Origin: Ignavibacteria bacterium
GTDB taxonomy: Bacteria > Bacteroidota > Ignavibacteria > Ignavibacteriales > Ignavibacteriaceae
Assembly (NCBI GenBank): GCA_021286645.1
Contig: JAJTBZ010000099.1
Coordinates: 1 to 39,606, forward strand
DNA: 39,606 bases
Direction: 5' to 3'
This document shows positions 2,104 to 8,499 of this stretch, in pieces. Each line of letters opens with the position of its first letter. Positions within the stretch are counted from its first letter, which is position 1. A program made the position numbers and the translations under genes. The notes under the pieces were generated by a model. It ran no database searches. It had not been told where the DNA came from and saw nothing but the letters and a program-made list of their open reading frames with translations.

Positions 2104-2754
2104 ATGGATACAACAGAGATAAATAAACGATATTCTGCGCTGGCTGAAGACAGTTGCTGCCTTTCATGCGGCGGAGCATTAAATTTCAGCTCACCTAACC
2201 CGGGTGAAGTTTGTATTGACCTTGGGTGTGGGCGGGGAAATGATGTGATCCGTATGGCACAAACTGTTGGAACCGATGGGTTCGTGTACGGGCTTGATGT
2301 TTCCGATGGAATGCTGGAGAAAGCCAGGAAAAACGCGGAGAAACTGGAAGTGAAGAACGTGCAATTTGTCAAATCCGAATTGCAGTCCATGGCACTCCCC
2401 TCCCAGGTGGCTAATTTGGTAATATCGAATTGTACCATCAATCATGCCCAGGATAAAGAAAAAGTTTGGAATGAAATTTACCGGGTTTTAAAGAAAGGCG
2501 GTCGTTTTGTTGTTAGTGATATATATTCACTTTCGGAAGTACCCGAAGAATACCGCAACGATCCTGTAGCTGTTTCAGAATGCTGGGCAGGTGCAATTGA
2601 GAAAGAGTTATATTTGAAAATAATCTCTGATGCAGGATTCGAAAATGTTCAGATTCTTGAAGAAAGCCAACCTTATGAGAAGGGTAAAATTGAAGTTTCA
2701 AGTTTTACCATTTCAGGAGTAAAACCCGCAGGTGGCTGTTGTTGTAATCATTAA
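2104..2754 (+). CDS. ArsM-like SAM-dependent methyltransferase with Cys-rich C-terminal tail
   Basis: A class I methyltransferase of 216 residues. The SAM-binding motif is IDLGCGRGND (38-47) and the later strand is FVVSDI. It resembles arsenite methyltransferase: ISNCTIN (C110) and SECWAGA (C160) sit where ArsM has its conserved As(III)-binding Cys, and a CCxxC group (C18, C19, C22) lies in the N-terminal Cys position. The protein is shorter than usual ArsM and ends in GGCCCNH, a possible soft-metal ligand. A GGAG box at 2095-2098 supports this start. It sits 23 bases before the small Cys-peptide gene, so it may act on arsenic, on the peptide, or on a product of both. The methyltransferase fold is certain; the substrate is inferred. 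Confidence 0.85.
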   Translation: MDTTEINKRYSALAEDSCCLSCGGALNFSSPNPGEVCIDLGCGRGNDVIRMAQTVGTDGFVYGLDVSDGMLEKARKNAEKLEVKNVQFVKSELQSMALPSQVANLVISNCTINHAQDKEKVWNEIYRVLKKGGRFVVSDIYSLSEVPEEYRNDPVAVSECWAGAIEKELYLKIISDAGFENVQILEESQPYEKGKIEVSSFTISGVKPAGGCCCNH

Positions 2755-2766
2755 TTACCCTATCAT

Positions 2767-2772
2767 AGGAGG
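2767..2772 (+). promoter_or_regulatory. Strong Shine-Dalgarno site of the peptide gene
   Basis: A perfect AGGAGG with a 5-base spacer to ATG 2778. Most neighbours in this cluster have weak sites, so this one marks the small ORF as truly and strongly translated. Confidence 0.85.
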
Positions 2773-2777
2773 ATACC

Positions 2778-2873
2778 ATGAAAACACTAATCAAAAAAGC
2801 GCAAGCTTCTTCACAGAAGGTTGCTCAATGCTGTGCAAAGACCTCAAAGGTTGTAGCCGGATGTCATGATTAA
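2778..2873 (+). CDS. Small cysteine-containing peptide, putative RiPP precursor (31 aa)
   Basis: ATG at 2778 to TAA at 2871-2873 encodes 31 residues, too short for usual gene calls. The first half is basic and polar (MKTLIKKAQASSQK). The second half holds three cysteines, C18, C19 and C29, in the quasi-repeated contexts QKVAQCC and SKVVAGC, and ends in HD. It has no hydrophobic signal peptide. The ideal ribosome site at 2767, the terminator right after it at 2884, and the radical SAM/SPASM gene 109 bases downstream are the usual arrangement of a short precursor peptide made in excess over its maturase. The modification is unknown; a thioether or another Cys-based change is an inference from the SPASM partner and the Cys content. 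Confidence 0.75.
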   Translation: MKTLIKKAQASSQKVAQCCAKTSKVVAGCHD

Positions 2874-2883
2874 TCTTTCATGC

Positions 2884-2918
2884 AAAAGCCGAAATCAGTA
2901 ATGGTTTCGGCTTTTTTG
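2884..2918 (+). terminator. Terminator/attenuator between peptide and maturase
   Basis: An 11-bp perfect stem (AAAAGCCGAAA 2884-2894 with TTTCGGCTTTT 2905-2915) and a T-run. Placed between the precursor and its maturase, it should let most transcripts end after the peptide while partial read-through feeds the downstream enzymes. Confidence 0.85.
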
Positions 2919-2982
2919 TTTATTCACCACCTGAATCGTTTCCCTTATTTGCGCATCATACTACCAAAGAAAATAAGAAAAC

Positions 2983-4293
2983 ATGGAATTATCAAAACAT
3001 AATATCGTTTCGAAAATTGAAGGCACTGAGGACTACTATATAGTTAATTTGCTTTCGGGAAATGCTGATATTCTCAGTGCGCAAAAAGCCGAGGAAATTT
3101 TTTCAGGGAATTTTTCTGATATCGATGAATATATAGAAAAGGGGTATATAGTCGAGCAGGCCGCGGAAAAAAAGATTTATAATGAAAAGTATCTTGATTT
3201 TATCGAGTCGCGAGATACTGATGAAGTTCAAATATTTTTTGTGCCCTGGTATGCATGTAACTTCGATTGCAGCTATTGCTATCAGTCCGGTTACCATAAT
3301 AAATTTACTGTACCCTCTACTGAATTAATTGATTCATTCTTTGCATATGTACTAAAAAAATTCGCTCATAGAAAGAAATATATAACCATATTCGGAGGGG
3401 AACCTCTATTACCTGGCGAAACATATCGCAACACTATTACATATATTCTATCGCGTGCAAAAGAAGCGAATCTGGAAGTAGCAATAGTTACCAATGGCTT
3501 TTTACTTTCTGAGTACATCGATATTTTGAAGGATAATCCTATTCGTGAGGTTCAGGTAACATTGGATGGCGTTAATGCTACACACGACTCGCGCCGCTAC
3601 CTGCAAGGCGGAGGACAGACATTTGAATCTATCTGTAAAGGAATTGATCAGGCATTAACTTCAAATGTTACAATAAATCTTCGTATGGTTGTAGATAAAG
3701 AGAATATTAAAGCTCTGGTGGACTTGGCGAATTATGCTATCAATAAAGGTTGGACTAAGAGCCCGTTTTTCAAAACTCAACTTGGCCGTAATTATGAATT
3801 ACACTATTGCCAAACTGGCAATGAGCGGCTTTTTAGCAGGCTCGAGTTCTATACTGCTCTATTTCATGAAGTAAACGAGCATCCGGAAATACTGGAATTC
3901 CATAAGCCGGCTTTTTCAATATCAAAATTTCTTTTCGAAAACGGCGAACTTCCATCACCATTATTTGACTCATGCACGGGATGCAAGACAGAATGGGCCT
4001 TCGATTACACTGGCAATATATATGCATGCACTGCAACTGTTGGTAAACCGGGCGAAGCCCTTGGGACATTCTATCCTGAAGTTACTCTTAATGACGATAT
4101 GGTAATGGACTGGGAGGATAGAGATGTAACAGCTATTGCTGCATGTAAAGAATGTAGTTTGCAGCTTGCGTGTGGTGGCGGATGCGCAGCCGTAGCACAA
4201 AACAGGAATGGAAGTATTCAATCTCCCGATTGCCGGCCTGTTAAAGAATTAATTGGAATGGGAATTAAATTATACTCAACACATGAGGAATAA
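2983..4293 (+). CDS. Radical SAM/SPASM peptide maturase
   Basis: A 436-residue protein. The radical SAM cluster motif is C92-xxx-C96-xx-C99 (CNFDCSYC), with the SAM-binding GGEP at 138-141. The C terminus is a textbook SPASM domain for two extra iron-sulfur clusters: C334-x9-G-x4-C349, then C388-xx-C391-x5-C397-xxx-C401 and C417, plus C331. The N-terminal 75 residues look like the small PqqD/RRE-like region found in many peptide maturases, but this is a weak call. SPASM enzymes of this type modify short ribosomal peptides, and the likely substrate is the 31-residue peptide upstream. The stop lies two bases before the thioredoxin-reductase fusion, so the two are coupled. The enzyme class is certain; the chemistry is not. 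Confidence 0.93.
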   Translation: MELSKHNIVSKIEGTEDYYIVNLLSGNADILSAQKAEEIFSGNFSDIDEYIEKGYIVEQAAEKKIYNEKYLDFIESRDTDEVQIFFVPWYACNFDCSYCYQSGYHNKFTVPSTELIDSFFAYVLKKFAHRKKYITIFGGEPLLPGETYRNTITYILSRAKEANLEVAIVTNGFLLSEYIDILKDNPIREVQVTLDGVNATHDSRRYLQGGGQTFESICKGIDQALTSNVTINLRMVVDKENIKALVDLANYAINKGWTKSPFFKTQLGRNYELHYCQTGNERLFSRLEFYTALFHEVNEHPEILEFHKPAFSISKFLFENGELPSPLFDSCTGCKTEWAFDYTGNIYACTATVGKPGEALGTFYPEVTLNDDMVMDWEDRDVTAIAACKECSLQLACGGGCAAVAQNRNGSIQSPDCRPVKELIGMGIKLYSTHEE

Positions 4294-4295
4294 CT

Positions 4296-5591
4296 ATGTC
4301 AGAAAAAATAATTTACGTTAATCATGATACATTTGAAAAAGAAGTACTAACAGGTGGCAAAGTAGTTGTCGATTTTTACTCTACTGAATGCCCGCCGTGT
4401 GAAGCACTCGCAGCGAAATTTGAACCCTTAAGCGAAATTTATGGAAGCGATATAAAATTTGTAAAAATATTCAGACAGGAAAACCGTGAACTGGCTACAA
4501 ATTTAGGAGTAACATCCTCCCCTACATTACTTTTTTACGAGAATGGAAATCGGGTGGGTGAACAATTAAGCGGGGGCGTTAAAAGAGCAGATATTGTTAA
4601 GAATTTGAATTTATTATTGACTCCGCAACGAGCGGATGAATTGCAGAATTTAAATACAAAAAGTGAAACTTTTTGCGATGTGCTAATCATCGGGGCCGGA
4701 CCCGCAGGCCTTGCCAATGCAATATACTCTGCGCAGGCAAAATTAAAAACAATTGTCGTAGACAAAGAGCTACCGGGCGGACAGGTAAAGGTAACTCACT
4801 TAGTCAGTAATTATCCTGGCTTCAGCGAACCCATTTCCGGATATATGCTGATGCACCACATGGCAGAACAGGCTAAATTGGCTGGTGCCGATTTCCGTTC
4901 CGCTGTTGATATTACTTCAGTGAATTTTTCTGATAAATATATTATAGTTGACGGTGTGGAAACCATTCACGCCAGGAAGATTGTTATTGCAACCGGTTCA
5001 TCACCTCGTTTACTGAATGTAAAAGGCGAACGGGAATATAAGGGGCAGGGTATTTCATACTGCGCTACATGTGATGCTAAATTCTACGAGGGTAAACACG
5101 TAATTGTAATCGGGGGTGGGAACTCAGCAATTGAGGAATCGCTATTCATTGCCAAGTTCGCTTCAAAAATAACTGTTGTACATCAGTTTGATAAACTGCA
5201 GGCTAATAAAGCTGCGCAGGAAAAAGCTTTCGCGAATGAAAAAATTGAATTCATTTTTGAGCACGAACCCCGTGAATTTATTAAAAATGGTAGCAGTGTA
5301 AACGAAGTACTCGTTGAGGATTTAAAGACAAAACAACTCAAAAAACTGAGCTGTGACGGTGTATTTATTTTTGCAGGTATGGCCCCCAATATTGCTGAGT
5401 TTGGTAATGTATTTGAGCTCGATTCGTGGGGTTATATAAAAACTGACGCGGCATGCAAAACTACTATTCCAGGTGTTTTTGCTGTTGGCGATGTAGCAAG
5501 CAAGCAATACCGGCAGATTACCACTGCAGTTTCCGATGGCACAATAGCTGCAATTACAATTGCTCGTGAACTTGAACATGAAAATGAGTAG
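4296..5591 (+). CDS. Thioredoxin-thioredoxin reductase fusion protein
   Basis: One 431-residue chain with two redox modules. Residues 1-110 are a thioredoxin fold with active site C32-P-P-C35 (not the usual WCGPC) and the cis-proline in TSSPT (P76). Residues 127-431 are a thioredoxin-reductase-type flavoprotein: FAD motif GAGPAG 133-138, dithiol C256-A-T-C259, nucleotide motif GGGNSAIE 273-280, and the closing FAVGDV. The usual NADPH-binding HRRxxxR is replaced by HQFDKLQ near 296, so NADH or another donor is possible. Start ATG 4296 has GAGGA seven bases upstream. Encoded directly after the maturase, it probably supplies dithiol electrons to keep peptide cysteines or bound metal reduced, or serves the ArsM-like enzyme, a family known to need thiol reductants. 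Confidence 0.92.
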   Translation: MSEKIIYVNHDTFEKEVLTGGKVVVDFYSTECPPCEALAAKFEPLSEIYGSDIKFVKIFRQENRELATNLGVTSSPTLLFYENGNRVGEQLSGGVKRADIVKNLNLLLTPQRADELQNLNTKSETFCDVLIIGAGPAGLANAIYSAQAKLKTIVVDKELPGGQVKVTHLVSNYPGFSEPISGYMLMHHMAEQAKLAGADFRSAVDITSVNFSDKYIIVDGVETIHARKIVIATGSSPRLLNVKGEREYKGQGISYCATCDAKFYEGKHVIVIGGGNSAIEESLFIAKFASKITVVHQFDKLQANKAAQEKAFANEKIEFIFEHEPREFIKNGSSVNEVLVEDLKTKQLKKLSCDGVFIFAGMAPNIAEFGNVFELDSWGYIKTDAACKTTIPGVFAVGDVASKQYRQITTAVSDGTIAAITIARELEHENE

Positions 5592-5658
5592 ATTTACATC
5601 AATCAGTTTCCTGGATCACTTTAATTTGATTTTCATTTTTTGATATTGAGAGCTAATA

Positions 5659-6204
5659 ATGGAATACGAAAAAATATATAATCAGGGTGTGCTGAAATTG
5701 CGTACACCGGAACGACTCGAACGGCTTGAAGTGCCCCGTGTAGTAGCAAGTTGTCTGGAAGGCAATAATTTTTCTTCTGTGCTCGATATAGGAACCGGAA
5801 GTGGTGTATTTGCAGAAGCGTTCTTCCATTCCGGTTTACGGGTTTCGGGAATTGACGTAAATCCCGAAATGATTGAATTTTCACAAAAGCTTTTGCCTCA
5901 ATGTACATTTGAACTTGGAAAAGCTGAAGATTTATCGGCAGGAGATCAATCTTTCGATATGGTTTTTATGGGACTGGTATTTCACGAAGTAACAGATGAA
6001 GCTAAGACACTACAGGGAGCTTATAGAGTTTGTGGGATACGAACAGCTATTCTGGAGTGGCCATATAAGGATGAGGAGTTAGGGCCGCCATTGCTTCATA
6101 GAGTGCAACCAGGACGAATTCAGGAGTTAGCCATTGCAGCGGGATTCAAAAATATACAAATAGTTGAATTAGAAAAACTTATACTCTACCTGTTGAACAA
6201 ATAA
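5659..6204 (+). CDS. Class I SAM-dependent methyltransferase, last gene of the peptide cluster
   Basis: A small (181-residue) methyltransferase of the UbiE/Methyltransf_11 type. The SAM motif is LDIGTGSGVFAEAF near residues 42-55, an acidic loop GIDVNPEM follows, and FDMVFMGLVFHEV lies near residue 105. It lacks the Cys pattern of the ArsM-like gene at the other end of the cluster. It starts 67 bases after the thioredoxin fusion on the same strand with no terminator between, and a hairpin follows it at 6229, so it is probably the last gene of the same transcript. Substrate unknown: the modified peptide, a thiol or a metalloid are all possible. Confidence 0.82.
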   Translation: MEYEKIYNQGVLKLRTPERLERLEVPRVVASCLEGNNFSSVLDIGTGSGVFAEAFFHSGLRVSGIDVNPEMIEFSQKLLPQCTFELGKAEDLSAGDQSFDMVFMGLVFHEVTDEAKTLQGAYRVCGIRTAILEWPYKDEELGPPLLHRVQPGRIQELAIAAGFKNIQIVELEKLILYLLNK

Positions 6205-6228
6205 ACTTCCAATATATCCATGATTATA

Positions 6229-6296: not shown

Positions 6297-7178
6297 TTAT
6301 TTGCCGTTGTCGCCGCCCAGAATTATCGGTAAACCACTCTTTCCGGAACCAATAACGATCACCTTACTATTTGTTGAATTGGCCAGCTTTTCTGTAGCTT
6401 CTATTCCCTTCCATTTCAATAATTGCTCAGTAATACCTTTTGCAACAATATTCTGAAAATCAGAAATACCTTGTGCTTCAATACGTTTTCTTTCTGCTTC
6501 CTGTTTTTCTTTCAACAGAATAAACTGCATGCGTTGGCTTTCCTGTTCAGCTTTAAGTTTTTCCTCTATGGCCATCGTCAGGCCCTGCGGTAAAGTAATC
6601 TGCCTTAAAGGAGCCGCGAGAATAGTTAATCCCTGTTTTTCTACTAATTTTTGCAGTTGTGCTTCTATCTCGCCAGACACAGTTTCCCGTTGAGAAGTAT
6701 AAAGAGCCTTAGCCTCATATTTGGCAGTAACCGACCGAACAACCGAACGGAATTGTGGAAGTAGTATTGTTCCCTGATAATTTTCACCGACTGTTTTAAA
6801 TAGTTGATTCGTCTTATCCGGGTTTAATTGGTAAATTAAACTAATTTCAAGCTGAATTGTTAATCCTTCTTTCGAAGGGACAGGCATAGTTTCCTTAAAC
6901 TCCTGCTCTTTAATACTGAACTTGTAAACATTAGCAAGAGGGTTTACTACATTCACACCTGCTTTTAAAGTATTTTCATTAACTGTACCGAGAAAGTCCA
7001 CAACTCCCACATGTCCCGCGGGTATAATTGTAAAGCATTGCATCAATGCAATAAAGAACGCTACTATTACTCCCGATAAAGCGAATGAGGCTTCGGTTTT
7101 ATTAAAACGCAAACGTGCATTCCTGAATACCATAAAGGCAATGCCCGCTGCGGCTAAGGAAATCAAAAATAAGTACAT
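6297..7178 (-). CDS. SPFH/prohibitin family membrane protein
   Basis: A 293-residue protein with two N-terminal hydrophobic segments (about residues 2-18 and 34-52). An SPFH/Band 7 domain follows (IPAGHVGVVDFLGTV through SVTAKYEA) and then a charged coiled-coil rich in E, K, Q and R (about 205-245). It ends in a short glycine-rich tail. Proteins of this family form ring-like or raft-like membrane scaffolds and often modulate membrane proteases such as FtsH; that role is family knowledge, not visible here. It begins 16 bases after the pyrimidine phosphorylase stop, so the two share a transcript, though no functional link is obvious. Confidence 0.9.
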   Translation of the reverse strand: MYLFLISLAAAGIAFMVFRNARLRFNKTEASFALSGVIVAFFIALMQCFTIIPAGHVGVVDFLGTVNENTLKAGVNVVNPLANVYKFSIKEQEFKETMPVPSKEGLTIQLEISLIYQLNPDKTNQLFKTVGENYQGTILLPQFRSVVRSVTAKYEAKALYTSQRETVSGEIEAQLQKLVEKQGLTILAAPLRQITLPQGLTMAIEEKLKAEQESQRMQFILLKEKQEAERKRIEAQGISDFQNIVAKGITEQLLKWKGIEATEKLANSTNSKVIVIGSGKSGLPIILGGDNGK

Positions 7179-7194
7179 TGAAAATCCTTCCTGA

Positions 7195-8499
7195 TTATTG
7201 AATTATTTCCCGAATGAGTTTCGGTCTTGAAACTCGTTTTTCGGAAAACTGCAAAGCACGCACTAAGCGTTCTTTGCCTGCTTCTAATTTTTTCTTGTTA
7301 TCACAATATACATCAGCAATTTTCGTCCCTGCCGTTAATTTGTCACCAATTTTCGGATAGAAAATTATTCCTGCTTTGGGATCGATAGCATCATCCAATT
7401 TCATTCTACCTGCACCAAGTTCAAGGGCAGCCATACCGACCTCGAGATTATTCACGGCAGCCAAATATCCGTCAGCATCGGCGAAAACTTCCTCGTGGAA
7501 TTTCGGTTTCGGATAGAGAGACAAATCTTTTAAAAACCGGACATCCCCACCCTGGAATTTGGCCATTTCGACAAATTTATCGAATGCTTTTCCCGAAGCA
7601 ATCAGTTCCTTCGATTTCTCAATACCCTCTTCAATTGTTTTTACAACGCCACCCATAACAAGCATTGCACCGGAAAGATTGAAGGTAACCTCGTTTAAGT
7701 CAGGAACATCTTTACCCTGTAAGACCTCAACAGATTCAACCACTTCGAGCCAGTTCCCGATGTAATTACCAAGAGGTTGATTCATATCGGTAATAAACCC
7801 GACAACTTTTTTATCAAACTGTTTGGCTGTATTAATTAAAGAATTGGCAAGAGCCCTGCTATCTTCCAGTTTTTGCATAAAAGCACCGCTGCCAGTTTTA
7901 ATATCGAGCACCAGGCCATCAATTCCTTCTGCAAGTTTCTTGCTCATGATAGAAGAAGTAATAAGCGCGATAGATTCAACCGTAGAAGTGACATCACGCA
8001 AAGCATAGATTTCTTTATCAGCCGGAGCAATTTCTTTTGTCTGCCCAATCATTACAGCTCCGACTTTAGCCAGTGCCTTCTTATATTGTTTAAGAGAAAG
8101 ATTTGTCTTAAAGCCGGGTATAGCCTCTAATTTATCAAGCGTTCCTCCGGTATGCCCTAAACCGCGACCTGAAATCATGGGGACGCTAATTCCCGCTGCG
8201 GCAACAATTGGTGCCAGTATGAGCGAAGTTTTATCGCCAACTCCGCCGGTGGAGTGTTTATCTACTTTAAATCCGGGAACAACTGAAAGGTCGATGACTT
8301 TACCGCTATAAAGCATTGCCTCTGTAAGCGCTGCTGTCTCTTCTGTCGTCATACCTTTAAAATAAACGGCCATTAAAAATGCAGAAAACTGATATGTTGG
8401 CACTTTACCTTTAGTAAACGAATTTACCATAAATAGAATTTCTTCTTTTGATAATTCAATACCCGTTTTCTTTTTGCGAATAATATCAACAACGTTCAT
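7195..8499 (-). CDS. Pyrimidine-nucleoside (thymidine) phosphorylase
   Basis: Catalyses phosphorolysis of thymidine and/or uridine to base plus (deoxy)ribose-1-phosphate in nucleoside salvage. The phosphate-binding motif KHSTGGVGDKTS is at 81-92, followed by SGRGLGHTGGTLDKLEAIPG (110-129), both diagnostic. The chosen ATG (8497-8499) gives 434 residues, the usual length for bacterial pyrimidine-nucleoside phosphorylases. A longer frame begins with TTG at 8571 but adds a non-homologous stretch and is rejected. The C-terminal PYNP domain is complete. Whether it prefers thymidine (DeoA-like) or all pyrimidine nucleosides (Pdp-like) cannot be told from the sequence alone. It is transcribed away from alaS, sharing about 200 bases of upstream DNA. 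Confidence 0.94.
   Translation of the reverse strand: MNVVDIIRKKKTGIELSKEEILFMVNSFTKGKVPTYQFSAFLMAVYFKGMTTEETAALTEAMLYSGKVIDLSVVPGFKVDKHSTGGVGDKTSLILAPIVAAAGISVPMISGRGLGHTGGTLDKLEAIPGFKTNLSLKQYKKALAKVGAVMIGQTKEIAPADKEIYALRDVTSTVESIALITSSIMSKKLAEGIDGLVLDIKTGSGAFMQKLEDSRALANSLINTAKQFDKKVVGFITDMNQPLGNYIGNWLEVVESVEVLQGKDVPDLNEVTFNLSGAMLVMGGVVKTIEEGIEKSKELIASGKAFDKFVEMAKFQGGDVRFLKDLSLYPKPKFHEEVFADADGYLAAVNNLEVGMAALELGAGRMKLDDAIDPKAGIIFYPKIGDKLTAGTKIADVYCDNKKKLEAGKERLVRALQFSEKRVSRPKLIREIIQ

Follow-up and report, generated by a model that had tools for sequence, protein, structure and literature searches.

Radical S-adenosylmethionine (SAM) enzymes with a SPASM domain frequently serve antimicrobial or signalling peptides, and several of the described systems closest to the one considered here pair such an enzyme with a small precursor. 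The thioether maturase CteB of the SCIFF system has a small cysteine-containing precursor, though we know of no ArsM-like enzyme or thioredoxin–thioredoxin reductase (Trx–TrxR) partner in that system. A small peptide likewise adjoins a SPASM-type enzyme in CbpA/CbpB and SbtA/SbtM. For the peptide-derived cofactors mycofactocin and pyrroloquinoline quinone (PQQ), the co-occurrence of a short conserved peptide, a SPASM-type enzyme and redox partners is strict. Here we describe a locus at positions 2104–6204 of a 39,606-nucleotide stretch from an Ignavibacteria bacterium (GenBank assembly GCA_021286645.1, contig JAJTBZ010000099.1; hereafter the window), which is a single contig of a 3.72-Mb genome. 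In it a three-cysteine peptide is accompanied by a SPASM maturase, an ArsM-like methyltransferase and a Trx–TrxR fusion. We consider it probable, if far from certain, that these four genes constitute a new family of ribosomally synthesized and post-translationally modified peptides (RiPPs), in which the radical SAM enzyme crosslinks a cytosolic tri-thiol peptide, the ArsM-like enzyme acts on that peptide, and the system's own reductase keeps it reduced. Probably the peptide is matured into a small modified molecule that has not been described, and this may be a thiol or metalloid cofactor; we infer the chemistry and role of the four-gene system, and the product may be thioether- or metalloid-linked.

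Reading of the open reading frames (ORFs) of the window recovered five on the + strand within this region, and the features of the initial annotation were all found at the coordinates first given. The elements of the locus are as follows:

2104–2754, + strand: compact ArsM-like SAM-dependent methyltransferase, 216 amino acids, a core gene, from NF008823 and CmArsM matches
2767–2772, + strand: AGGAGG ribosome-binding site of the peptide, read from the sequence
2778–2873, + strand: 31-residue precursor-like peptide with the C-terminal core AQCCAKTSKVVAGCHD, from the ORF and its conservation in relatives
2884–2915, + strand: intrinsic-terminator-like hairpin in the peptide/maturase interval, a 14-pair stem and then a T-run
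2983–4293, + strand: radical SAM/SPASM maturase, 436 amino acids, with an N-terminal region resembling a RiPP recognition element (RRE), from PF04055, the cysteine pattern and the predicted model
4296–5591, + strand: Trx–TrxR fusion, 431 amino acids, a core gene, from PF00085 and a TrxR match
5659–6204, + strand: second class I methyltransferase, 181 amino acids, from PF08241/PF13649, accessory only

As in RiPP systems generally, a conserved small precursor gene accompanies the modifying enzyme. Among 80 loci (L017–L096) fetched after a maturase scan of genome contigs, 77 have, upstream of the maturase, a small ORF that closes with CCA...GCHD and a stop codon; from the peptide stop to the maturase hit the median distance is 67 nt (range -1 to 426). 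The other three (L018, L064 and L088) have no adjacent peptide, yet in each genome the peptide is present beside an ArsM-like gene: at a contig end in the first, in an ArsM-like/peptide pair that shares a 51,867-base contig with the maturase/fusion pair and lies about 9.6 kb upstream of it in the second, and in such a pair on a separate short contig (7,152 bases) in the third. On contig 143 of the L064 genome (L160) the stretch of about 9.6 kb contains NifX-like, DUF1847 and sulfur-transport-like genes, as if inserted into the cassette.

The C-terminus of the peptide is near-invariant, AQCCAKxSxxxxGCHD. Over 43 aligned sequences M1, A16, C18, C19, A20, K21, G28, C29, H30 and D31 are invariant and Q17 and S23 almost so, and mean pairwise identity in the core is 0.80 over 16 residues, with 9 invariant columns. 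The leader is basic and mostly starts MKSL(I/V)KK, and lengths range from 30 to 53 residues across loci. Because at least two synonymous codons occur at every invariant core residue counted in 78 sequences (the final Asp being outside the count), selection acts on the protein. A small ORF that was not conserved beside the maturase in related genomes would have told against the initial annotation; the recurrence shows that it is conserved there. The peptides of the window and of four relatives found no match among NCBIfam models. Selenocysteine was considered for the peptide and rejected, as a scan permitting a stop at each core cysteine gave only a chance match in L081. Whole-genome searches gave one peptide copy per positive genome; in one Myxococcales bin the cassette is present twice (L044, L046), as closely related copies on different contigs, through duplication or mixed strains.

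The interval between peptide and maturase is informative in its own right. It is shorter than 40 nt in 29 of the 77 loci, and among the 48 with a gap of at least 40 nt a terminator-like hairpin lies between the two genes in 16, compared to a mean of 0.7 and a maximum of 3 in 40 sets shuffled by a purpose-written segment-swapping routine. The stem sequences differ among loci. Such an element would yield more peptide than maturase, and higher output of precursor than of enzyme via a terminator is found also in other precursor–maturase pairs. A short cysteine-containing ORF followed by a terminator-like hairpin ahead of the maturase, as in the window and these 16 loci, is also the layout of an attenuator, in which the ORF would be a leader peptide whose Cys codons regulate the maturase gene together with the terminator, the maturase acting on a different substrate. 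However, conservation is of amino acids and not of codons, the final GCHD included, just 48 of the 77 peptide loci leave at least 40 nt between the two genes, and 32 of those have no hairpin by our simple rule. Moreover, the peptide lies 9.6 kb from the maturase in one genome and on a different contig in another. We find this explanation extremely unlikely and discarded it on the amino-acid conservation and the peptide copies distant from the maturase.

The two other partners recur with the precursor and its putative maturase. Counting hits above 100 bits, an ArsM-like gene is found in 75 of the 80 loci and a Trx–TrxR fusion in 77. Three of the five loci lacking the former (L018, L064, L088) come from genomes that carry it at another place, and in L051 and L081 the maturase is near a contig end; similarly, L045 and L083, which lack the fusion, end at the maturase. 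Where all four genes are present (72 loci), their order is ArsM-like gene, peptide, maturase, fusion in 68 and fusion, ArsM-like gene, peptide, maturase in 4. Across a 395-genome sample of the phylum, peptide and maturase co-occur in the same 5 genomes, and in a 245-genome sample of the class a single set of 7 genomes, the window's included, carries peptide, maturase and fusion, no genome disagreeing at the thresholds applied; the two samples have five positives in common, the window genome among them. The same 7 genomes lead the ArsM-like search of the class with E-values of 1e-101 or better, the next being 3.7e-57, while some ArsM-like gene is found in 175 of the 245. Distance matrices of the ArsM-like enzyme, maturase and fusion are correlated (Mantel r 0.82–0.88; 0 of 999 permutations as high). 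Joint inheritance of peptide, SPASM enzyme, ArsM-like enzyme and fusion as a unit is thus well supported. The initial annotation had proposed a set of five genes, of which these four recur; the second methyltransferase is present in only 4 of 87 loci (L011, L014, L020, L070; the 87-locus searches include three duplicates, L010, L013 and L016, of L017, L019 and L027, from which the 80-locus set is free). It was rejected as a core gene on that count and is instead an accessory of close relatives.

Most of the 80 loci come from Bacteroidota, and the others include Ignavibacteria, Spirochaetota, Myxococcota, Elusimicrobia and Margulisbacteria. The source genomes are metagenome bins throughout, so isolated odd placements may be binning errors. 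In the maturase tree, which omits L030 owing to a mid-gene stop in its maturase, the window enzyme clusters with those of Ignavibacteria; Myxococcota form one supported clade, whereas Bacteroidota, Ignavibacteriota, Spirochaetota and Elusimicrobiota do not. Mobile carriage was considered and set aside: the maturase has no match in plasmids or viral contigs and the peptide none in phages or plasmids, and 31 pattern matches to the peptide in viral contigs gave zero confirmed, a 31-residue query having low power in these peptide searches.

The maturase matches PF04055, and its radical SAM cysteines C92, C96 and C99 are conserved in 81 of 81 sequences, as are SPASM cysteines 331, 349, 388, 391, 397 and 401, with C334 kept in 77 and C417 in 80. 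By this pattern and by its fold it fits a known peptide-modifying superfamily, and its best solved matches are peptide maturases. A further cysteine outside the usual SPASM motif, C276 (in GRNYELHYC), is also invariant in all 81. The solved relative that covers it best by profile, Foldseek and VIA-align alike is CteB (PDB IDs: 5wgg/5why; profile E 1.3e-19, Foldseek E 3.7e-18), which superposes by VIA-align with a Z of 26.1 and a root mean square deviation of 3.7 for 393 residues over positions 4–435, N-terminal region included. CteB differs in having only 19% identity to the maturase, which scores 85.5 against the cut-off of 425 for TIGR03974, and the two peptides differ. Anaerobic sulfatase-maturating enzymes (PDB IDs: 4k36–4k39) are tied with CteB in Z (25.4–25.6); the maturase scores 74.4 bits against their model TIGR03942 (cut-off 349), and the core set contains no sulfatase. 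Their matches begin at maturase residue 80 and thus leave out the N-terminal region, whereas the CteB alignment begins at residue 4. In the predicted model (mean predicted local distance difference test score, pLDDT, 84.6) this region comprises strands at 7–11, 18–22 and 27–31 and helices at 33–41, 47–52 and 59–77, and looks like an RRE.

None of the best 25 of 79 NCBIfam matches of the maturase reaches its cut-off, and four relatives behave in the same way; membership of a well-studied family with another, unlinked substrate would have told against the initial annotation. The top score within these 25 is that of the Cys-every-fifth maturase CefB (NF038107; 142.3 of 600 bits, full length, and at most 164.8 bits in the four relatives), but unlike the precursors of that system the peptide has its cysteines at 18, 19 and 29. 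The model of the PapB-type ranthipeptide maturases (NF047865) gives 124.4 bits against a cut-off of 340, and TIGR04463 gives 123 against 525. The peptide lacks the Cys-X3-Asp motif of ranthipeptides and has only a terminal Cys-X1-Asp; there is nevertheless a likeness to PapB substrates, in that the core terminates in an invariant Cys-His-Asp, and PapB tolerates Cys-Xn-Asp with n from 0 to 6 (PMC9413430). The kinship with CbpA/CbpB initially proposed holds for the peptide–maturase layout and not for the enzyme itself, which lies far from CbpB (TIGR04163; 66.1 bits against 375), with CefB, PapB and TIGR04463 scoring higher and CteB the best of the solved structures; the SbtM selenobiotic model is not among the best 25 of the 79 matches. 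The cassette works like a RiPP system yet falls outside every named family that could be scored, and we regard it as a new family of RiPPs set apart by its uncommon combination of enzymes.

The ArsM-like enzyme scores 193 bits against the arsenite methyltransferase model NF008823, below the cut-off of 263, and its nearest solved structure is CmArsM, both by sequence and by fold. Its model has a pLDDT of 89.3, with low confidence at residues 17–21 just ahead of C22. Cysteines C22, C37, C110 and C160 are Cys in all 72 aligned sequences, and the first, third and fourth of these align with the positions of CmArsM Cys72/174/224. Fold, SAM domain and these cysteine positions are thus shared with ArsM and AS3MT. 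Common ArsM homologues, however, have a Cys-rich N-terminal extension of about 55–60 residues that is missing here (four compared), and the C-terminal region is shorter than in three of the four. In the class-wide search the enzyme stands apart as a distinct subfamily.

These similarities raise an alternative, namely that the cassette handles metalloids directly: the tri-Cys peptide would bind trivalent arsenic or something similar and present it to the ArsM-like enzyme, with the Trx–TrxR fusion as reductant and the radical SAM enzyme either maturing the peptide or forming a carbon–metalloid bond. The enzyme's top structural match is consistent with this, as are the conserved cysteines, since Cys72/174/224 of CmArsM contact As(III), and the fusion, since a Trx/TR/NADPH system increases AS3MT activity (review passage, PMC12608789). 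However, the score of 193 lies under the family cut-off, the ars operon of the window genome sits on a contig other than that of the cassette, arsR-type helix-turn-helix proteins account for just 2 of 72 operon neighbours scanned, and in each of the six other cassette genomes of the class sample one or more additional ArsM-like genes have scores typical of the common type. We therefore regard this alternative as unlikely, though it deserves to be kept in mind. The window genome itself lacks a second ArsM-like gene at a comparable score level. A simple ars operon was rejected, as the window genome's ars genes are located elsewhere. That ars-type operon (contig C102 of genome G000, locus L159, 393–3824), separate from the cassette contig, runs in the order ArsR-like, ArsC-like, small thioredoxin-like, Acr3, permease-like and small thioredoxin-like ORFs, where Acr3 is over its cut-off (452.9 bits) and the remaining names are read from the ORFs.

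The reductase fusion starts 2 nt after the maturase and places Trx (PF00085 at 5–104) N-terminal to TrxR (128–425), a point in which it differs from known fusions. Both active-site motifs of known Trx–TrxR fusions are kept, C32/C35 (CPPC) and C256/C259 (CATC), in 74 of 74 sequences, and the score against the thioredoxin reductase model TIGR01292 is 329.6 bits, slightly below 343.45. The window genome carries a separate TrxR, 38% identical, for which reason the fusion looks dedicated; in the class sample it is found only alongside the peptide system (7 of 245 genomes).

These parts suggest a sequence of events for the proposed RiPP family. The RRE-like N-terminus of the maturase would bind the basic MKSL(I/V)KK leader, and the enzyme would then form a radical crosslink within the C-terminal core, most likely a thioether from one of the three cysteines, with C29-H30-D31 (Cys-X1-Asp, invariant) and C19-X3-S23 as candidate sites. 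A thioether former is our best guess for the maturase, and other radical chemistry is possible too. The ArsM-like enzyme would next methylate the peptide, or a soft ligand on its thiols, by way of its own ArsM-type cysteines, and the NADPH-Trx-TrxR fusion would re-reduce both peptide and methyltransferase.

Most likely the product remains intracellular and serves as a thiol cofactor or carrier; an antibiotic is the less probable role. The precursor–maturase layout is compatible with an exported antimicrobial or signalling RiPP, but the core is near-invariant across phyla, in the 16 residues and 9 columns described above, and each positive genome holds a single copy, although the Myxococcales bin has two loci. 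Additionally, no common exporter or immunity gene was found near the cassette, 7 of 84 loci being the most in which any such gene occurs. The annotated neighbour clusters of those loci, where clusters in 5 loci or fewer are only partly annotated, include no peptidase, although not every RiPP needs a leader peptidase or exporter close by. The barely varying core and the absence of a recurrent leader peptidase, exporter or immunity gene make the product likely intracellular, and the single copy further favours a cytosolic cofactor or carrier; an exported RiPP we hold to be highly unlikely. A more ambitious proposal is that the radical SAM and ArsM-like enzymes jointly build a methylated, metalloid- or thioether-linked tri-Cys peptide that functions inside the cells of several phyla as a cofactor for redox or group-transfer reactions and bears a metalloid or selenium/sulfur, and this we put forward as quite a long shot.

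Several observations weigh against our interpretation of the locus as a new RiPP family with an intracellular product. The scan returned 201 relatives, of which the 80 loci represent the best, and L032 has no fusion inside the 17 kb covered. The Mantel correlation may come partly from shared descent. Residues 402–416 of the maturase model have a pLDDT below 50, the tie in VIA-align Z between CteB (26.1) and the anaerobic sulfatase-maturating enzymes (25.6) means that the fold leaves the reaction unfixed, and the RRE and crosslink-site assignments derive from fold and spacing. Transport genes do occur as minority clusters in the 84 loci (TauE/SafE-like in 7, TonB-receptor-like in 6 and 5, ABC ATPase in 4). 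When 72 of 94 unlabelled operon neighbours of at least 90 residues were scanned, no Pfam family occurred more than 3 times, so the neighbours do not reveal the end use.

The genes around the cassette were clustered over the 84 loci, among them the duplicate L013 (of L019), with one example each checked by Pfam for most cluster labels and the acyl-CoA thioesterase, sigma factor and DUF134 labels assigned by our own reading. DUF6132 is found near the cassette in 33, DUF302 in 30, DUF1847 in 19 and an SQR-like oxidoreductase in 16, which suggests sulfur or metal handling in Bacteroidales; as they are outside the window's own core we do not count them as parts. The DUF302 protein is downstream within the operon in 29 cases (for instance L080, 10679–11086). 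A small opposite-strand gene with an IS1595 zinc-ribbon domain lies upstream in 14 of the 84 (for instance L069, 5464–5904, - strand); it is short for a transposase and may be a domesticated regulator. In the window itself the region is flanked by hemN upstream and by a Band 7 protein gene downstream on the other strand. A different SPASM system is found in L015, from the same order, where a 463-residue maturase (6361–7752, - strand; 152.5 of 600 bits against the CefB model) is followed by a 61-residue Cys-containing ORF (6023–6208, - strand) with no Pfam or NCBIfam match.

The impression in the initial annotation that the full gene set is undescribed agrees with our literature search. We found no paper linking ArsM with SPASM and radical SAM, and none containing the peptide core motif, or QCCAK among the papers listed, in a search that left subscription journals mostly outside, where a description is possible. 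A mining study of Bacteroidales RiPPs (PMC10352776) contains neither arsenite, arsenic nor thioredoxin in its main text. The partner set of an ArsM-like enzyme and a Trx–TrxR fusion was thus not found described.

The cassette shows the kind of signature known from mycofactocin and PQQ across several phyla and some 80 genomes (80 loci, two from one bin). We know of no other ribosomal peptide with an ArsM-family maturase and its own NADPH-driven recycling protein; if the joint action of the radical SAM and ArsM-like enzymes were true, this would be the first, and should the product carry a metalloid, the system would amount to more than one further RiPP family with uncommon enzymes. The cassette offers a concrete four-gene target for the study of a modified peptide, and it may be a missing piece of thiol or metalloid metabolism among uncultured bacteria.

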